Source of the DNA: Natrinema salinisoli
GTDB taxonomy: Archaea > Halobacteriota > Halobacteria > Halobacteriales > Natrialbaceae
DNA: 64,000 nt
Direction: 5' to 3'
Assembly (NCBI RefSeq): GCF_020405205.1
Contig: NZ_CP084469.1
Location: 2,914,001-2,978,000 of the forward strand
The position numbers and the translations under genes were made by a program. Shown here piece after piece: positions 54,953 through 64,000 of this stretch (within the stretch, counting starts at the first letter, position 1; each line of letters opens with the position of its first letter). The notes beneath the pieces were generated by a model. It did no database searches. It was not told the origin of the DNA and was given only the letters and a program-made list of their open reading frames with translations.

Positions 54953-56431
54953 TCAGATCTCCTCGAGCAACTCGAGGATGTCCGAGAAGCCGAAACGGCC
55001 GTTCCCGTCGAAGTCGAACTTCTCGGGGTTGTTCCGGACGCCGTCCGAATCCCGGTGCTCGAAGAGGGCGTTGACGTCGCCGTGAGTCGTCTCGTTGTCC
55101 CCGTTGACGTCCTCGTACAGACCGTCGTCGTCGAGATCCCGGGCCTCGTACTCGCCGACCGAGATCGTGTCGTGGCCGGACCCGCCGCTCTTCTCGTCGA
55201 CGATCGCCGCGTACTCCTCGATGAGGTGGCCGGACTCGCTCGCGTAGAGCTGGAACCCGTCGTGGTCCTGGGTTTCTTCGAGGACGACTTGCCACGGGAG
55301 GACGGCGTTGCAATCGTACTCGTCGGCGACGTCGTACCACGACGCGAGCGTCTCGTTTTTCGTCTCGAGGTCGTGCTGGGTGTCGTCGACGTTGAACTCG
55401 CCGAGGTAGGCGGGCTTGCCGATCTCCTCGTGGGCGTCGACGACGCGGTTCCGGATGTACGCCGCCCCCTCCTCGAGCGGGAAATTCCAGTGATCCGGAT
55501 ACAGGTGGAACGAGCAGGCGTCGATCGTCTCGATCGAGTGGTGGTCGACGTAGTCCTGCCCGTCCCAGTTGCCGTCCGGGTACTCGTCCTCCCGGGTTCC
55601 GTAGTAGTGGCCCTCCGACCCCGTCGAGACGAGGTGATTCCCGTCGAGGTCGTTGACGTACGTCGACATGTCTTCGAACCAGGTCCCGAGGATCTCGCGG
55701 TGTTCGGGCGACTCGAGGGAGTCCATGTCGTCGGGGACGTCGTCCTGCTCGAGGCGCGGTTCGTTGGCCAGTTCCCAGAGTGCGATGGTGGGATCCTCGC
55801 GCCACTCGATTCCGCTGATCGAGTTCTCCCGTGTGAGGATGGTTTCGACGTGGGTACGGTACATCTCCCGGGTTTCGTCCATCGTGTAGAACTCGTAGCG
55901 CGACTCGCCCCCGGCCCACTCGGCGTACTGGAGCATGCCGCCCTCGTGGTCCCAGTTGTCCACGAGCGTCGCGATGAGCCTGATGCCCCGCTCCCTGGCC
56001 GCTTCGATCAGGTAATCGAGGTTCTGGAGGGCCTCCTCGTTGTACTCGCCGGGTTCGGGCTGGAGTGCGAGGGGACCGTCTTTCCCCTCGCCGTGCGCCC
56101 AGAACCGGACGAGGTCGATCCCCAGCTCCTGGTAGAGATCCAGGACGTCGTCGATGCGTTGCCTGGTTCCCTCGTATTCGTGGGTGATCCAGAAGTTGTT
56201 CGCCCCGTTGAAGTAGACCGGTTCGCCGTCGACGACGAACTCGGTTCCGTCGGTCTCGACGAACGCGAGGTCGTCGGGGTCGGTCATCGGCTCCGCGGCT
56301 GCCGCTGCAGTGCCGATGCCCGTCGAGGCGATCGCCGCACCGGCGCCGATCGCTTTGACGAAGCGGCGACGGGTGTGCTGTGCTGTTCGATCAGTCGTGC
56401 GACCGTCCGCAATCGATTCGTTCCTGGTCAT
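54953..56431 (-). CDS. Tat-exported GH5-type glycoside hydrolase (mannanase-like) with dockerin-like module
   Basis: A 492-residue extracellular enzyme. The Tat signal TRRRFVKAIGAGAAIAS lies at about 20-36. The catalytic TIM barrel spans about 58-415: VYFNGANNFWI opens the domain, acid/base Glu224 sits in LANEPR and nucleophile Glu345 in LGEFNVDD, as in clan GH-A. The opening and LVDNWDHEGGM resemble GH5 endo-beta-mannanases. After a short Gly/Ser linker, residues about 428-492 form a dockerin-like module with two Ca-binding loops, DVNGDNETTHGD and DFDGNGRFGFSD. Closely similar modules end the next two genes. It is the last gene of the five-gene block; 317 bp separate it from the preceding one. 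Mannan is the likeliest substrate but this is inferred. Confidence 0.85.
   Translation of the reverse strand: MTRNESIADGRTTDRTAQHTRRRFVKAIGAGAAIASTGIGTAAAAAEPMTDPDDLAFVETDGTEFVVDGEPVYFNGANNFWITHEYEGTRQRIDDVLDLYQELGIDLVRFWAHGEGKDGPLALQPEPGEYNEEALQNLDYLIEAARERGIRLIATLVDNWDHEGGMLQYAEWAGGESRYEFYTMDETREMYRTHVETILTRENSISGIEWREDPTIALWELANEPRLEQDDVPDDMDSLESPEHREILGTWFEDMSTYVNDLDGNHLVSTGSEGHYYGTREDEYPDGNWDGQDYVDHHSIETIDACSFHLYPDHWNFPLEEGAAYIRNRVVDAHEEIGKPAYLGEFNVDDTQHDLETKNETLASWYDVADEYDCNAVLPWQVVLEETQDHDGFQLYASESGHLIEEYAAIVDEKSGGSGHDTISVGEYEARDLDDDGLYEDVNGDNETTHGDVNALFEHRDSDGVRNNPEKFDFDGNGRFGFSDILELLEEI
54962..55117 (-). repeat. Dockerin-encoding direct repeat, copy 1 of 3
   Basis: A 156-bp segment that is nearly identical to 56758-56913 and 58408-58563, on the same strand. 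It encodes the two calcium-binding loops and adjoining helices of the dockerin-like module at the end of a GH5 gene. Confidence 0.85.
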
Positions 56432-56748: not shown

Positions 56749-58254
56749 TCAGAGCTCCTCGAGCAACTCGAGGATGTCCGAGAAACCGAAACGACCGTTG
56801 CCGTCGAAGTCGAACTTCTCGGGGTTGTTCTGGACGCCCTCGGAGTTCCGATGTTCGAACAGAGCGTTGACGTCCCCGTGGGTCGTCTCGTTGTCCCCGT
56901 TGACGTCCTCGTAGCGGCCGTCGCCGTCCCTGTCGTAGGCCCTGTGGTCGCCCAGATCGATCCAGTCGGAGTCGCCGCCGCCGACGAACGTGTCGTCTTT
57001 CGTGTCCTCGAGCCACTCCCGAACGAACCAGCCCATCTGTTCGGGGTCGTCTTTCAGTTCCCACGGTTCGGCGGCCCCCTCGCCGGGCGAGTCGAAGAAG
57101 GTCGGAGCCCACGTGTCGTCGAAACACCAGGCGAGCCAGCCCATGTTCTCGTAGGACTCCATCCACTCGCGAACGGGTTCTCCCCAGTCGCTCGTCGTGC
57201 CGGAATCGACGTTTTCTTCGAATTCCTCGGCGGGATCCCACCCGAATTCGGTGACGACCACTGGGACGTCATCGGCCGGCGCACCGTACTCCGGATCGAA
57301 CGGGCCGACCTCCTCGGTGTCGCCTTCCGACCCCCGTTCGACCGTCTCGTAGGGGAGTCCGTGGGCCGGATAGATGTGGGCGGCGTAGATCAGGTTCTCG
57401 CCCTCGAAGGGGTACTCGGGGGCGAACTTGGTCCGAGAGGTCCAGTCGGGTGAGCCGATGACGATCGGCGTCTCGGGAGCGTCGTTCCGAATCAGGTCGA
57501 CCCACGACTGCGCGGTATCGCGCCACAGCAACCACTCGTCTTCGCGCGTCCGAATATCCGGCCCGTGCTCCCCGTACGACGACCACGTGACTGGGAGCGT
57601 CGGTTCGTTGTACAGTTCGAAGAGGACGTTCTCGTCGTCGGCGAAGGCCGGGGCGACCGCGCCCCAGAACTCCGTCAACAGGTCGTCGGTGTCGACGTGT
57701 GGATCGAACCCGAGGCCGTCGAGGCTATCGGCCCACCCGTCGTCGACCATTCCTTCCCCGTGGGCCATCGCCTCCACGTACGGTCGAATGAGGTGGAAGT
57801 CGATCATCGCGTAGACCCCCCGGTCGGCCAGCAGGTCGACGGCCGGCCGCAACAGGTCCTCCACGATGTAGTCCGTTCCCTCTTCGTGGACCGCGTCCTC
57901 CCCGACCGGGAGCCTGACGACGTTCGGATGCCACCGGTCCCCGTCGGTCGCGTGCTCGAGGATCTCCCGCTGACTCTTCGGGAACCACGACGCGTCGATG
58001 TAATCCAGCGACGCCGGCGAGAGGCCGCGAAGTTTCACTCGCTTCCCGTCCTCGGTGACGATCCACTTGCCGTCGGTTCCCAGTCGCGGCGTCGGGTTGT
58101 CCACGGCCGCTACCGATCCCGACAGCCCGCCGAGTGCGAGCCCGGCCGCGCCGACGCCCGCCGCTTTCACGAACGTCCGTCGCGTCGGTCGGAGCGATCC
58201 CCGATCTCCCCGTTCTGGTTGCCGATTCTCTCCCGTAGTGTTATGATCTACCAT
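56749..58254 (-). CDS. Tat-exported GH5-type glycoside hydrolase (cellulase-like) with dockerin-like module
   Basis: A 501-residue extracellular enzyme. The Tat signal is TRRTFVKAAGVGAAGLALGG (about 24-43). The GH-A catalytic domain (about 55-420) starts RLGTDGKWIVTEDGKRVKLR, has VNVVRLP-like VVRLPVGED, acid/base Glu217 in LYNEPT and nucleophile Glu336 in VTEFGWD, a pattern of GH5 endoglucanase-type enzymes. Residues about 437-501 are the dockerin-like module (DVNGDNETTHGD and DFDGNGRFGFSD loops), almost the same as in both neighbours. The ATG at 58254 is 32 bp from a good TATA element, so the mRNA is nearly leaderless. It probably acts on beta-glucan or a related polymer outside the cell, tethered by a cohesin partner. 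Confidence 0.85.
   Translation of the reverse strand: MVDHNTTGENRQPERGDRGSLRPTRRTFVKAAGVGAAGLALGGLSGSVAAVDNPTPRLGTDGKWIVTEDGKRVKLRGLSPASLDYIDASWFPKSQREILEHATDGDRWHPNVVRLPVGEDAVHEEGTDYIVEDLLRPAVDLLADRGVYAMIDFHLIRPYVEAMAHGEGMVDDGWADSLDGLGFDPHVDTDDLLTEFWGAVAPAFADDENVLFELYNEPTLPVTWSSYGEHGPDIRTREDEWLLWRDTAQSWVDLIRNDAPETPIVIGSPDWTSRTKFAPEYPFEGENLIYAAHIYPAHGLPYETVERGSEGDTEEVGPFDPEYGAPADDVPVVVTEFGWDPAEEFEENVDSGTTSDWGEPVREWMESYENMGWLAWCFDDTWAPTFFDSPGEGAAEPWELKDDPEQMGWFVREWLEDTKDDTFVGGGDSDWIDLGDHRAYDRDGDGRYEDVNGDNETTHGDVNALFEHRNSEGVQNNPEKFDFDGNGRFGFSDILELLEEL
56758..56913 (-). repeat. Dockerin-encoding direct repeat, copy 2 of 3
   Basis: The same 156-bp unit as copies 1 and 3, at the 3' end of the second GH5 gene. 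Encoded differences are few (for example HRNSEGVQ against HRDSDGVR). Confidence 0.85.
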
Positions 58255-58280
58255 ATTTACTATCACGCATGGTTCGAAGT

Positions 58281-58398: not shown

Positions 58399-60477
58399 TT
58401 ATATCCGCTCGAGCAACTCGAGGATGTCCGAGAAGCCGAAGCGGCCGTTGCCGTCGAAGTCGAACTTCTCGGGGTTGTTCTGGACGCCGTCGGCGTTTCG
58501 GTTCTCGAAGAGGGCGTTGACGTCGCCGTGGGTCGTCTCGTTGTCCCCGTTGACGTCCTCGTAACGGCCGTCGCCGTCGAGATCCCGCGCCTCGTACTCG
58601 CCGACCGATATCGTCTCGTTGCCGTCGCCGCCGTCGTCCCCGTCACCGATTGTCCGCGTGTCGAAGGGAACCTTGTCGTTTTTGTGCTCCTCGAGCATCT
58701 GCTTGATGTAGACGCCGCTGTCCTCGCCCCCGATCAGGTCCCACTCGCAGGGAAGCTCGTCGCATCCGACCGGGAGGTCCTCGAAGGGCGTGTCGTAGAA
58801 GTTGTCGTTGACGAGGTCGAGTTCGCCCTCTTCCGGCGCGTTCGGGTTGTCGAACATCTTCGGCAGCCAGCGGACGTCGGCACACCAGCCGACCCAGCTG
58901 ATTCGGTCGTCCTGCTCGACCTGGTCGAGGAACGGAACACCGTACTCGGGGAGCGTCCCCTGCCCGGTGGTCGTCCCGCGCAGCCAGTGGGAGACGTCCG
59001 CGTCGTTGATCCAGCCGAACTCGGTGATCGCGACGGGGTGGTGCTCCATCGCGTTCTGCAGACCCGCCGCCTCGTAGGCTTCCCAGCCGTAACACTCCTG
59101 CTCGTAGGGGTCGTCCTCCACCGGGAGATAGGGGCTCTCGAGGTCCTCGCCGGTTTCGGCCTCGACCGCGTCGGGGCTCTGGTAGTTCGTGTCGTTGAAC
59201 CAGTTGTTCATCTGGCTGACGTCGTGGCCCGCGTAGTTGTGCCAGGTGACGGCGATGTTGTCGTAGCCCGCGTCGTTGAAGTTCCGCCAGTGAAGCGCCT
59301 GCACCGACTGACACCAGCCGGGGACGCCGACCAGCAGGACGCGATCGGACTGGTACTCCCTGATCTTCTCGATGATCGGTCCCATGAACTGATCGAGGAA
59401 CGTGTCCCAGAGGGGCTTCTGCTTGAACGCCCCGCAACCCTCGACGGGACCCCAGATCCCCGGCGCGGTCGGCTCGTTGTACGGCTCGAAGAGCACGTGC
59501 TCCATCTCGCCGTAGCGCTCGGCCACCACGTCCCAGAACATGAGGACTTCGTCGAGCAGCTCCTGGTTGACCGTCCAGTTCTCGTACGCGTACGGCGTGC
59601 CCTCGAGGTTGCCCTCGCTAATCCCTTCGACGTAGTCGTCACCGGGCGTGTTCTCGATGTACGTCTGGTCGACGTACCCCCAGGAGCCGGGCGCGTCCTT
59701 GCCGAACATCTCGTGGCTGTTGTACGCCCAGTAGTTCGTGTACTCGCTGTTGTAGGGCAGGTGGTTCTCGGCGTAGGCGGGTTCCTCGATGCCCGGCGGC
59801 TGCTCGTGCCAGTGGCGGTGGTAGTCGACGATGCAGTAGACGCCGCGCTCCTTGCAGCGTTCGACGATCGGGTCGTAGTAGTTCTCGAGGTAGTCCTCGA
59901 GTTCTTCTCGCGTGAACGCCTGTGGCTGTGCCGGGCGCTGCTTGCGCCGGTCGTCGTCGACCGCCTGGGGCGACTCGAGTTCGCCGTACTCGTACTCGGG
60001 TCCGGTGTGTCCCATCGGGTGGTGCGAACCGTCGTCCTTCGTGCCGATGTCCTGTGGCTGTGCGGGAACCCGGATAACCCGCGGGTGCCAGCCGGCTTCG
60101 TTGTTCGTGACCATATCGAGGAGCTGTTCCGGCGTCTTCCCGCGGAGGTTCCGCGTCCGGTGGAGCCGCTTCGGATCGGGAATGCTGAGCCCCCGCATTT
60201 TGAACGTCTCGCCGTCCTCGTTGACGATTCGGTTGTCGTCGCTGACCGTCAGGTCCTGGAACTCGTCGAGCCCGCCGGCCGCCGCACTGCCGGCGAAGCC
60301 GGCGCTCATCCCGAGGCCGGCGACGCCCGCGGCGGCGGTCGTTCGCATCACGCTACGCCGAGTGAGGTTGATCGGCGACGTCGCGTCGTCCTCCGTCCGC
60401 TTCAGTACACTTCGTCGCGTGCTCTCGTTCGTCGGTTCGTCCGTCTGCTGCGCGTTATCAGTCTGTTTCATTGTCAT
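58399..60477 (-). CDS. Large Tat-exported GH5-like glycoside hydrolase with dockerin-like module
   Basis: A 692-residue extracellular enzyme. Two twin-arginine motifs occur in the leader (TRRSVLK at about 20 and LTRRSVMRTTAAAGVAGLG at about 39); only the second is followed by a hydrophobic stretch, so it is the likely Tat signal. The GH-A barrel (about 75-600) contains DNRIVNEDGETFKMRGLSIP, acid/base Glu335 in PYNEPT and nucleophile Glu486 in ITEFGW. It has insertions (for example around residues 145-190 and 230-300) that make it larger than most GH5 enzymes. Residues about 625-692 are the dockerin-like module (DVNGDNETTHGD and DFDGNGRFGFSD). It lies at the head of the three enzyme genes. The substrate is unknown. 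Confidence 0.82.
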   Translation of the reverse strand: MTMKQTDNAQQTDEPTNESTRRSVLKRTEDDATSPINLTRRSVMRTTAAAGVAGLGMSAGFAGSAAAGGLDEFQDLTVSDDNRIVNEDGETFKMRGLSIPDPKRLHRTRNLRGKTPEQLLDMVTNNEAGWHPRVIRVPAQPQDIGTKDDGSHHPMGHTGPEYEYGELESPQAVDDDRRKQRPAQPQAFTREELEDYLENYYDPIVERCKERGVYCIVDYHRHWHEQPPGIEEPAYAENHLPYNSEYTNYWAYNSHEMFGKDAPGSWGYVDQTYIENTPGDDYVEGISEGNLEGTPYAYENWTVNQELLDEVLMFWDVVAERYGEMEHVLFEPYNEPTAPGIWGPVEGCGAFKQKPLWDTFLDQFMGPIIEKIREYQSDRVLLVGVPGWCQSVQALHWRNFNDAGYDNIAVTWHNYAGHDVSQMNNWFNDTNYQSPDAVEAETGEDLESPYLPVEDDPYEQECYGWEAYEAAGLQNAMEHHPVAITEFGWINDADVSHWLRGTTTGQGTLPEYGVPFLDQVEQDDRISWVGWCADVRWLPKMFDNPNAPEEGELDLVNDNFYDTPFEDLPVGCDELPCEWDLIGGEDSGVYIKQMLEEHKNDKVPFDTRTIGDGDDGGDGNETISVGEYEARDLDGDGRYEDVNGDNETTHGDVNALFENRNADGVQNNPEKFDFDGNGRFGFSDILELLERI
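58408..58563 (-). repeat. Dockerin-encoding direct repeat, copy 3 of 3
   Basis: The same 156-bp unit as copies 1 and 2, at the 3' end of the third GH5 gene. Homology extends further right into the RYEDVN/EYEARDLDG coding part in copies 1 and 3. Confidence 0.85.
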
Positions 60478-60914: not shown

Positions 60915-61637
60915 TCACTCCGACCTCCCGGATCGGTCACCCCGTCTCCCGAGCGCGTACGCGATCCGCCCTGCAGCGCCGATCACCGTAGCCGAGGGAC
61001 CGAAGCCCGGAATTTCGTCGTCGGTACCGGCAGTCGTCTCAGGTCCACCGCCACCGTCCGCCGATTCGCCATCTCCGACGGTGAGCGCCGCCGATTCGCC
61101 CGTCGATTCGACGACCTTGCCGTCGCCGTCCTCGAGCCGGACGATCTCGACCTCGGCTGTGGTTTCACCGACTGCCACTCCCTCGACTTCCACGTAGCCG
61201 ACATCGAGGTCAGTAGCACCGGCATCGATCGACTTCGCCGCGGCGAGACTCGCCGTCCCGTCCGTCGTTTCGACGTCCTGAACCAGGGCGTCGGCGAACG
61301 TCTCGCCGAGCCCGGCGTCGGCGACGGTCGCGACGTCCGTGTCGACGGTGACCTCGAGATCGAACCCCGAGAGTCCATCGGGGGCCTCGGTCAGGCCGAT
61401 ATCGACCGTCGTGGTCTCGCCCGAATCGATCGCCGTCTCCGCCGGCGTCATCGTTACCGTCGGTGTCTCACTCGTCTCGGCAACCGGTCCAGTCTTCCCG
61501 GCGACCGGTCCGGCCGCTACGCCCGCACTGACGAGGCCGGCGGCCGCCAGGAATCCCCGCCGGCCGATCGCATCGTCGGACGTTACGGCGCACTGACTCG
61601 CCCCTTCCACCCGTTTCGTTTCCGTAGTTTCGTGCAT
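60915..61637 (-). CDS. Cohesin-like domain protein with Tat signal and PGF-CTERM-like anchor
   Basis: A 240-residue surface protein. The Tat signal is IGRRGFLAAAGLVSAGVAAG (about 24-43). Residues about 60-188 look like a type I cohesin beta-sandwich: TVTMTPAETAIDSGETTTVDI, EAPDGLSGFDLEVTVDTDVA, GTASLAAAKSI, YVEVEGVAVGETTAEVEI. A close relative of this domain lies in the next protein (both have TTTVDIG and GLSGF). After an acidic Gly/Thr linker the C terminus reads EIPGFGPSATVIGAAGRIAY and a basic tail, a PGF-CTERM-like signal, although the Arg inside the hydrophobic run makes it less canonical. It would hold dockerin-bearing enzymes at the cell surface. The cohesin call needs an HMM test. Confidence 0.7.
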   Translation of the reverse strand: MHETTETKRVEGASQCAVTSDDAIGRRGFLAAAGLVSAGVAAGPVAGKTGPVAETSETPTVTMTPAETAIDSGETTTVDIGLTEAPDGLSGFDLEVTVDTDVATVADAGLGETFADALVQDVETTDGTASLAAAKSIDAGATDLDVGYVEVEGVAVGETTAEVEIVRLEDGDGKVVESTGESAALTVGDGESADGGGGPETTAGTDDEIPGFGPSATVIGAAGRIAYALGRRGDRSGRSE

Positions 61638-61860: not shown

Positions 61861-64000
61861 TTACGAGACCGTGATCTCGACGTCGTGGGTCGTCTGCCGT
61901 CCGCGCTGATCCGTCGCGGTAAGCGTCACCGTGTAGGTGCCACTGGACTCGTAGGAATGCCCGGCGTACCAGCCGCTGACGGACGTTCCGTCGCCGAGGT
62001 CCCACTCGAGCCCAGTGATCCAGATATCGCCGGGCGTGTCGTCCCTGACATGGAAGCCGATGCGCTCGCCGGTCTCGACGTCCGTGGCGCTCGGGTCGAT
62101 CTTCGCGAGGTGGTCGACCTCGAGGGGAATCTCGCCGTCGACGGGCTCCCAGGCGTAATTTTCCTCGTACTTCGGTTCCGTACCCTGGTTCGTCCACCGT
62201 GCTTCCCAGTCTTCGCCGTTCCAGTGAACGCGCTCGCCGCTCTGGTAGAGCGTGTTGGCGTCCCACTCGGGATACTCGCTGTCGCCACCGTCTTCGTTGT
62301 CGCCGTCGTCACCTCCCGCAGTCGTGGCGGAGACCGTCGCGGGATCGGTCTCCGTCCCCTCCTCACCGACCGCGCTGACGCCGATCTCGTAGGTCGTCTC
62401 GGCCTCGAGGTCGGTGACGGTGGCGCTGGTCGAGCTCGTGGTCGTTTCCTCGGTACCGTCGACGGAGACGACGTATTCGACGGCGTTCGGGTCGGAACTC
62501 CACGCGACTTCGATCGACGTCTCGTTCTCGGCGACGACCTCGAGGCCCTCGGGCGTGCTCGGCGGCACGTGGGGCTCCGCAGTCGTGGCGGAGACCGTAG
62601 CGGGGTCGGTCTCCGTCCCTTCCTCGCCGACCGCGCTGACGTTGATGTCGTAGGTGGTTCCCGACTCGAGATCGGGGACCGTAATGCTGGTCGAGGTCGT
62701 GGTGAGCGTCTCCTCCCCGCGGGCCCAGACGTTGTACTCGACGGCGTTCGGGTCAGAGTCCCACGCGACTTCGATCGACGTCTCGTTCTCGGCGACGACC
62801 TCGAGACCCTCGGGCGTGCTCGGCGGCGTATTGGCCTCCGCGGTCGTGGCGGAAATCGTCGCGGGGTCGGTCTCGGTGTCCTCCCCGCCGATGGCGCTAA
62901 CACCGATCTGATAGGTCGTGCCCGACTCGAGGTCGGTGACGGTGGCGCTGGTCGCTGTCGTGGTCGTTTCCTGCTCGCCGTCGACGTACACGGCGTACTC
63001 GTCGGCGTTCGGATCGGTCGCCCACGCGACCTCGATCGAGGTCTCGGTTTCGGCGACCACTTCGAGATCCTCGGGAACGCTCGGCGGCTTCTCGTCCGGT
63101 TCGCCGTCGCCGACGGTGAGCATCGCCTCTTCGAATTTCGGTTCGATGAGTTTCGCGCCGTCGTTGCCGGGAAGCGTTTCCATCGGGGTGTTCCCCTCCG
63201 CGACGTCGACGACCGTCTCGCCGTCGGCGACGCCCTCGAGTTCGACGGTTGCGAGGTCGAGGTCGGTCGTTCCTTCGCTGATCCGTTTTCCCGCCGCTGC
63301 GACGGTCGCGGACCCGTCGGTCACGTCGATCTCGGGCGGGAACAGGGAATCGGCGAACGTCTCACCGATCTCGGCGTCGACGATGATCGCGGCCTCGGTG
63401 TTGACGTCGATATCGAGTTCGAACCCGGACAGCCCGTTGGGGACCGCCGTCATGCCGATATCGACGGTCGTCGTCTGGCCCGGATCGACCTGAGCGTCGG
63501 CGAGATCCACGGTCACCGTGGGCGTCTCCGGCTCCGACCCCGCGACGGTCGTGGCCTGCACCGTCGCCATCCCGGAGGCGGTTTCGCCCTCACCGACGGC
63601 ACTGACGCCGATATCGTAGGTCGTGTCGGCCTCGAGCCCCGTGATTGTCGCGCTGCTCGAGGTCGTCGTCAGCTCCTGCTCGCCGTCGACGGAAACCGCG
63701 TACTCGAGGGCGTCCGGTACCGGACTCCACTCGACCTCGACCGAGGTCTCGCTCTCGTCGACGACCGCGAGGTCCGCGGGCATATCGGGCACGCTGGGGT
63801 CGTCGCCGACCCTGAGCGTCGGCGTCTCGTAGTCGACCGCGACCGCTTCGTCCTCGGCGTCGGTCAGCAGGAAGTCCGACAGTTCGACGTCGGTCGTCCC
63901 GTCTTCCTGTGCCTCGAGGACGAAGGTGGCGAACTCGTACTCGCTCGTTCCGACGTCCATGACCCCGCCGTCCTGCCTGAACGCAGCGTAGTCCGCCCGG
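61861..64000 (-). CDS. Scaffoldin-like multidomain surface protein, C-terminal part (cut by window edge)
   Basis: The frame is open to base 64000, so the N terminus is outside the window; 712 codons are seen. Numbering from the internal Met at 63960, the order is: end of a cohesin-like domain (1-53, FATFVLEAQEDGTTDVELSD), FN3-1 (about 55-139), a complete cohesin-like domain (about 146-285, TTTVDIGMTAVPNGLSGFEL), FN3-2, -3 and -4 (about 292-548), a CBM5/12-like module (about 563-608, YPEWDANTLYQSGERVHWNG) and a PKD-like domain (about 620-699, EWDLGDGTSVSGWYAGHSYE). No catalytic domain or C-terminal anchor is in the visible part. It could be a scaffold, or the tail of an enzyme whose catalytic domain is off-window. 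Confidence 0.72.
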   Translation of the reverse strand, partial: RADYAAFRQDGGVMDVGTSEYEFATFVLEAQEDGTTDVELSDFLLTDAEDEAVAVDYETPTLRVGDDPSVPDMPADLAVVDESETSVEVEWSPVPDALEYAVSVDGEQELTTTSSSATITGLEADTTYDIGVSAVGEGETASGMATVQATTVAGSEPETPTVTVDLADAQVDPGQTTTVDIGMTAVPNGLSGFELDIDVNTEAAIIVDAEIGETFADSLFPPEIDVTDGSATVAAAGKRISEGTTDLDLATVELEGVADGETVVDVAEGNTPMETLPGNDGAKLIEPKFEEAMLTVGDGEPDEKPPSVPEDLEVVAETETSIEVAWATDPNADEYAVYVDGEQETTTTATSATVTDLESGTTYQIGVSAIGGEDTETDPATISATTAEANTPPSTPEGLEVVAENETSIEVAWDSDPNAVEYNVWARGEETLTTTSTSITVPDLESGTTYDINVSAVGEEGTETDPATVSATTAEPHVPPSTPEGLEVVAENETSIEVAWSSDPNAVEYVVSVDGTEETTTSSTSATVTDLEAETTYEIGVSAVGEEGTETDPATVSATTAGGDDGDNEDGGDSEYPEWDANTLYQSGERVHWNGEDWEARWTNQGTEPKYEENYAWEPVDGEIPLEVDHLAKIDPSATDVETGERIGFHVRDDTPGDIWITGLEWDLGDGTSVSGWYAGHSYESSGTYTVTLTATDQRGRQTTHDVEITVS
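62317..63087 (-). repeat. Three tandem FN3-encoding repeats
   Basis: Three consecutive units of about 255-260 bp encode FN3 domains that share blocks such as PEGLEVVAENETSIEVAW, DPNAVEY and ETDPATVSATTA. Units 2 and 3 (of FN3-2 to -4) are the most alike, which suggests recent duplication. A fourth FN3 further upstream is more diverged. Confidence 0.8.

Follow-up and report, generated by a model that had tools for sequence, protein, structure and literature searches.

We identified a locus in Natrinema salinisoli that probably codes for a haloarchaeal cellulosome of small size; we put the probability at about 85%. This reading is based on the modules of the proteins, their folds, the gene order, the co-occurrence of the parts, and their concerted evolution. 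The locus lies at the right edge of the window, by which we mean the whole 64,000-nucleotide stretch that was analyzed (G000:C1:2914001-2978000, where G000 is the window genome). It comprises a gene for a GH5 enzyme with a dockerin, a scaffold gene, a gene for a 240-amino-acid cohesin protein, and three genes for GH5 enzymes with dockerins. The best-known cellulosomes are those of anaerobic bacteria. Cellulose-growing haloarchaea are typically aerobes that live at near-saturating salt. The features are, in window coordinates:

66301..64412, outside the window: GH5 enzyme with a TAT signal and a C-terminal dockerin, 43 bp upstream of the scaffold gene
61861..64000, minus strand: visible part of the scaffold gene, with TAT signal MTNDNNTYDDAQLTDQQTDSSASRRTFMQAAGASAG (TAT-type N-terminus SRRTFMQAAG)
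63793..64000 visible, full to 64227, minus strand: cohesin 1, residues ~47-193
63541..63783, minus strand: FN3-1 (Pfam fn3; limits approximate, from sequence)
63094..63534, minus strand: cohesin 2, residues ~279-425 (Pfam Cohesin and AlphaFold)
62299..63087, minus strand: FN3-2 to FN3-4 (Pfam fn3; limits approximate)
62149..62268, minus strand: CBM5/12-like module, residues 701-740 (Pfam CBM_5_12, E = 3.6e-4)
61867..62100, minus strand: PKD domain, residues 757-834 (Pfam PKD_4, 51.8 bits)
60915..61637, minus strand: 240-amino-acid cohesin protein with a TAT-like N-terminus and a PGF-CTERM-like C-terminus, DEIPGFGPSATVIGAAGRIAYALGRRGDRSGRSE
58399..60477, minus strand: GH5 enzyme (cellulase-like) with a TAT signal; dockerin at 58402-58617
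56749..58266, minus strand: GH5 enzyme (cellulase-like) with a TAT signal; dockerin at 56752-56967
54953..56431, minus strand: GH5 enzyme of the beta-mannanase type with a TAT signal; dockerin at 54956-55171

Inspection of the open reading frames showed that, on the minus strand, the scaffold frame continues without a stop from 61861 beyond the window's right edge. With the adjoining DNA added, the whole gene spans 64368..61861 on the minus strand (L009 16368-13861) and encodes 835 amino acids; its first 368 bases fall outside the window. The module order is a TAT signal, cohesin 1, FN3, cohesin 2, three FN3 domains, the CBM5/12-like module, and PKD, and Pfam's fn3 model finds four stretches in the protein. 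The original prediction, made from the visible part, was that there are at least two cohesin modules: the N-terminal 53 residues would be the end of one, and a full one would follow FN3-1. Those residues are indeed the second half of cohesin 1, the module after FN3-1 is cohesin 2 (63094-63534), and the extended gene encodes exactly two cohesins and zero catalytic domains. FN3, CBM5/12, and PKD modules are common in modular chitinase- and cellulase-type enzymes, and their presence here would fit an ordinary enzyme of this type that is cut by the window edge. However, a Pfam scan of the complete 835-amino-acid protein found no catalytic domain, and what lies upstream within the protein is only the TAT signal and cohesin 1, not the catalytic domain without a cohesin that would have contradicted the prediction. 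We therefore rejected this explanation, which has a negligible chance of being correct. The nearest catalytic domain is in the product of another gene, 43 bp upstream of the scaffold gene, and this product has a dockerin at its end.

The predicted PKD domain was confirmed by HMM search. The CBM5/12 assignment did not hold at Pfam's standard, as the module scores 20.9 bits against PF02839 (E = 3.6e-4), under the curated cut-off of 26.2. This match is real though weak, and we refer to the module as CBM5/12-like only. Across seven scaffolds of relatives, the CBM5/12-like and PKD modules are 60-88% identical (60-87% for the CBM5/12-like module). No dockerin or anchor was found on the scaffold protein itself, so the scaffold would not be attached to the cell by a PGF-CTERM-type route. 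As in known cellulosomes, then, there is a non-catalytic scaffoldin with several cohesins (two) and a carbohydrate-binding module, albeit one that falls below the Pfam cut-off.

Pfam Cohesin (PF00963) recognized cohesin 2 in the genome search, with 26.2 bits, which is above the cut-off. It did not recognize cohesin 1 or the cohesin of the 240-amino-acid protein (61059-61472), both of which we joined to the family via our own cohesin alignment (A1). Against the resulting profile these modules score 179 and 192 bits, respectively, but each is itself a row of the profile. By sequence, the profile matches scaffoldin C only at E = 0.003, and this weak similarity may explain why the modules were missed by annotation.

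Structure models provide a further line of evidence. The AlphaFold model of cohesin 2 (from a seven-sequence alignment; pLDDT 90.7) has the cohesin of R. flavefaciens ScaC as its best Foldseek match (E = 2.4e-9). Structure alignment gives Z = 15.0 and an rmsd of 2.4 over 132 residues to a C. cellulolyticus cohesin; Z is 15.0 to 1g1k and 4ums and 14.8 to the archaeal cohesin 2xdh, and cohesins account for nearly all of the best 50 structure matches. For cohesin 1 we modeled the copy from N. salsiterrestre, which is 95% identical (pLDDT 76.9, with two poor loops), and its top matches are cohesins as well (Foldseek E = 7.5e-8; Z = 12.4 to 6kge). The models confirm a predicted cohesin beta-sandwich for cohesin 2 and, less confidently, for cohesin 1. 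Because cohesin 1 is just ~30% identical to cohesin 2 and gave a weaker model, it may have another partner.

The prediction that the scaffold collects enzymes is supported by the neighboring enzyme genes, each of which carries a dockerin. A search of the genome with Dockerin_1 (PF00404) found five places, four of them around the scaffold, and our own dockerin-family search added a sixth. Two of the dockerin genes lie far from the locus, at 814-818 kb; one is for an arabinanase-like enzyme of GH43 and the other for a pectate lyase similar to PelZ. Within the locus, the product of 54953..56431 matches a GH5 mannanase (PDB 8gf3, E = 1.2e-57) and the other three GH5 proteins match GH5 cellulases. 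All four have the acid/base (NEP) and nucleophile (E-F) motifs of GH5. The genome thus encodes six plant-polysaccharide enzymes with dockerins (4 GH5, 1 GH43, and 1 pectate lyase-like), which is another hallmark of a cellulosome. The dockerins have the two duplicated calcium-loop/helix segments of type I: both loops are present, as D-x-[NTD]-x-D...D and D-x-D-x-N...D, and the loop positions are invariant. Their PDB matches are EF-hand proteins and the CelS dockerin. Scored protein by protein, they reach 19.4-23.0 bits with Pfam, at or just below the cut-off of 22.9; in the genome search they are above it.

The 240-amino-acid protein, whose cohesin is 52% identical to cohesin 2 of the scaffold, ends with a PGF motif, a hydrophobic segment, and a basic tail, and the motif is conserved in relatives. 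The PGF_CTERM HMM gives it 13.8 bits, versus a cut-off of 24.5, and archaeosortase A (ArtA) is encoded in the genome (318 bits). Judging from these sequence features, we propose that it is a membrane-anchored cohesin.

The scheme that we infer covers the route of export in vivo, the binding and its stoichiometry, the anchoring, and the substrate. The enzymes and the scaffold would leave the cell folded via the TAT pathway, and the calcium-loaded C-terminal dockerins of the enzymes would plug into the two cohesins of the scaffold, which implies at most two enzymes per scaffold. The dockerins would also dock on the small separate cohesin, which a PGF-CTERM/archaeosortase anchor would keep in the membrane. 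The CBM5/12-like and PKD modules might keep the assembled enzymes on the polysaccharide, and the anchored cohesin might keep dockerin enzymes at the cell surface.

The same cluster is present in the public genomes of Natrinema salsiterrestre and N. ejinorense. To describe its distribution across the genus, we compared cohesin and dockerin matches in 29 genomes. At the default threshold, the cohesin-positive and dockerin-positive sets are the same 20 genomes, although part of this overlap stems from a separate PhoX cohesin/dockerin pair (described below). Above 100 bits, the two sets are the same seven genomes. Across the family (125 genomes), 13 genomes from five genera have multi-cohesin frames, and these very 13 are also the ones with strong dockerins. 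The family thresholds (1e-15 and 1e-18) were picked after the genus result was known; the default-threshold result for the genus does not depend on them. A recurrent gene order was seen in the five genera: a dockerin-GH5 gene, the scaffold, in several cases an anchored cohesin, and a run of dockerin enzymes. Linkage and common descent account for part of the co-occurrence within the cluster. In one of the 13 genomes (G393), a scaffold is present and the dockerin genes are unlinked, hundreds of kilobases away. With the A1 and A2 profiles, the one stretch of G002 that we searched had a weak dockerin match only.

The number of cohesins per scaffold varies:

2 cohesins: Natrinema and G077
3 cohesins: G321, G062, and G105
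at least 5 cohesins: G104, where the gene ends at a contig edge
8 cohesins: G344
10 cohesins and an N-terminal GH5: G399 (2096 amino acids; L059:5179-11469), whose cohesins are unrecognized by Pfam

A second protein of G399 combines a weak match to cohesin with a dockerin and is possibly an adaptor. In G264, a dockerin-rich genome of family f3, a frame of 1040 amino acids has several cohesin matches (G264:C1:2396347-2398530). Among the cargo of G321 are GH5 and GH10 enzymes, a rhamnogalacturonan lyase, and a protein with BNR/Vps10 repeats. We consider it fairly likely, with less confidence than for the window's locus, that haloarchaea hold a true archaeal family of cellulosomes, which would range from two-cohesin scaffolds to ten-cohesin catalytic scaffoldins, would use plug-and-socket sets homogenized within each genome, and would extend the same logic to other enzymes.

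Within a genome, the dockerins evolve in concert. We compared 66 orthologous pairs of enzymes from seven genomes, with catalytic identity over 50% (mostly 75-97%). In 53 of the 66 pairs, the dockerin is nearer to its closest same-genome paralog, in both genomes, than to its own ortholog; in 8 pairs the orthologous dockerin is closer than the paralogs of both genomes. Among unrelated enzymes of the window genome, the dockerins are 67-99% identical while the catalytic parts are 22-34% identical. At position 11 of calcium loop 1, the window genome and N. salsiterrestre have G, except in the GH43 protein (A); all of the copies from G321 have A, and the other four genomes have E. The residue hardly varies within a genome but changes from lineage to lineage. 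Clostridial dockerins have recognition residues here, and we presume that the position serves recognition in these dockerins as well.

As for the cohesins, their median identities among the seven scaffolds are 0.50 and 0.53, versus 0.76 for the CBM and 0.75 for PKD, so the scaffold cohesins diverge faster than those two modules. Cohesin-2 similarity correlates with dockerin similarity across genomes (Mantel r = 0.83), but so does that of PKD (0.77), and we regard this correlation, which is confounded by phylogeny, as minor support. In G321, the three cohesins of the cohesin-2 type, one of which is the anchored cohesin, share 75-83% identity among themselves and 50-60% with those of other genomes. 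This homogenization is absent from the window genome, where cohesin 2 and the anchored cohesin are 52% identical. Together, these patterns match what would be expected if plugs and sockets formed a set that is subject to shared selection or gene conversion. Along with the co-occurrence, the concerted evolution lends indirect support to the predicted high-affinity binding of dockerins and cohesins.

Type I dockerins of haloarchaea have been said to take part, or to be likely to take part, in the binding of substrates (PMC10963439, PMC13260240). Could the dockerins of this locus be stand-alone modules that bind the substrate or are stabilized by calcium, and the cohesin proteins be unrelated adhesins or wall proteins? 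The matches of the dockerins to generic EF-hand proteins agree with this, as do those two papers, which take the dockerins as substrate binders. On the other hand, stand-alone modules do not account for the perfect match, among 125 genomes, between the 13 that have scaffold cohesins and the 13 that have the dockerins, or for the adjacency of scaffold and dockerin genes in five genera. Nor would substrate-binding modules be expected to be homogenized within a genome when they are attached to unrelated enzymes with different substrates, or to share one residue, almost throughout a genome, at the position that is presumed to serve recognition. We consider this explanation to be very improbable.

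A less improbable alternative, which we still think unlikely, is that cohesins and dockerins do bind, but that the anchored single cohesin is what mainly holds the enzymes, for surface display, and that the scaffold acts as a minor cross-linker or as an adhesin for polymers and does not build a multi-enzyme complex. This would suit a scaffold with two cohesins only and a single anchored cohesin next to it. Also, elsewhere in the genus, a PhoX protein with a cohesin and a dockerin adjoins a 253-amino-acid PGF-CTERM-like cohesin protein. But no A1-type anchored cohesin was found in four of the seven scaffold-bearing Natrinema-type genomes, which implies that surface attachment is not general; complexes in those four genomes are likely to be free. 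Furthermore, proteins at the same scaffold position in other genera have 3 to 10 cohesins.

The locus has much in common with the cellulosomes of clostridia and ruminococci (CipA, ScaB, or ScaC type): a secreted, non-catalytic scaffold that combines cohesins with a carbohydrate-binding module, adjacent genes for enzymes that have dockerins at their C-termini, the cohesin fold, calcium-loop dockerins, and a separate, putatively anchored cohesin, which we take to be comparable to OlpA-type anchors. It differs in its archaeal host, its TAT signals, and its acidic, halophilic sequences; in having a putative PGF-CTERM/archaeosortase-type anchor instead of SLH or sortase; and in that its scaffold has CBM5/12-like and PKD modules instead of CBM3, two cohesins, and no dockerin. 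The ten-cohesin protein of G399 may be likened to ScaA of Acetivibrio cellulolyticus, which we take to be a catalytic scaffoldin, although the catalytic family, the host, and the export differ, and the window's scaffold is non-catalytic.

Outside of cellulosomes, archaeal cohesin and dockerin modules are known from Archaeoglobus fulgidus (2xdh) and from ANME archaea, whose scaffoldin-like proteins carry as many as 5 cohesins (PMC9012536). The common dockerin proteins named for ANME archaea are transporter components (transporter-binding proteins), whereas here plant-polysaccharide enzymes and a scaffold with a CBM are encoded in one cluster. In the Peer 2009 survey, at least as cited in PMC9012536, archaea with cohesins and dockerins lacked multi-cohesin scaffoldins; multi-cohesin scaffolds in haloarchaea contrast with that view. 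Clusters of GH5, GH10, and GH26 enzymes, with secreted GH5 enzymes and in some cases type I dockerins, have been reported in haloarchaea (PMC10267330, PMC10963439). A text search of these two papers found no mention of cohesin, and in PMC10267330 the cellulosome and scaffoldin appear solely as a bacterial model. How cellulose-growing haloarchaea organize their many secreted GH5 and GH10 enzymes has been described as almost unknown (PMC10267330), and a cohesin scaffold is a direct and testable answer. We found no haloarchaeal scaffoldin in the open literature that we searched; subscription papers and preprints were outside of its scope, so priority is uncertain. The kind of system is known, and its archaeal form seems to be new as far as the open literature shows, which is not certain. 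The system would also offer salt-stable cohesin-dockerin pairs for enzyme display.

Other proteins with these modules are found in the window genome and its relatives. The window genome encodes a 269-amino-acid Pfam cohesin protein with a PGF-CTERM-like end (L010:7707-8516, which is G000:C1:3855707-3856516; match at 3855884). We set it aside as a partner because such Pfam cohesins are genus-wide, even in genomes without Pfam dockerin matches. The same genome also encodes a 292-amino-acid cohesin-like protein (L056). At G143:C3:75704-75910, a dockerin match with an internal TGA adjoins another dockerin gene and is apparently a decayed enzyme gene. The PhoX pair is exemplified by G004, where a PhoX-type alkaline phosphatase with a C-terminal cohesin and dockerin (L055:3194-6580) lies beside the 253-amino-acid PGF-CTERM-like cohesin protein; equivalents are present in most Natrinema-type genomes, and similar pairs are found class-wide. 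Finally, a protein of 2087 amino acids in G207 (L053:6161-12424) has 14 cohesins by Pfam and a PGF-CTERM-like C-terminus; its gene is clustered with genes for secreted proteins that have dockerins at their ends. G043 has a corresponding cluster (L051/L052), in which both of the dockerin proteins that we scanned are subtilases, and the 14-cohesin cluster is possibly a haloarchaeal scaffold for proteases.
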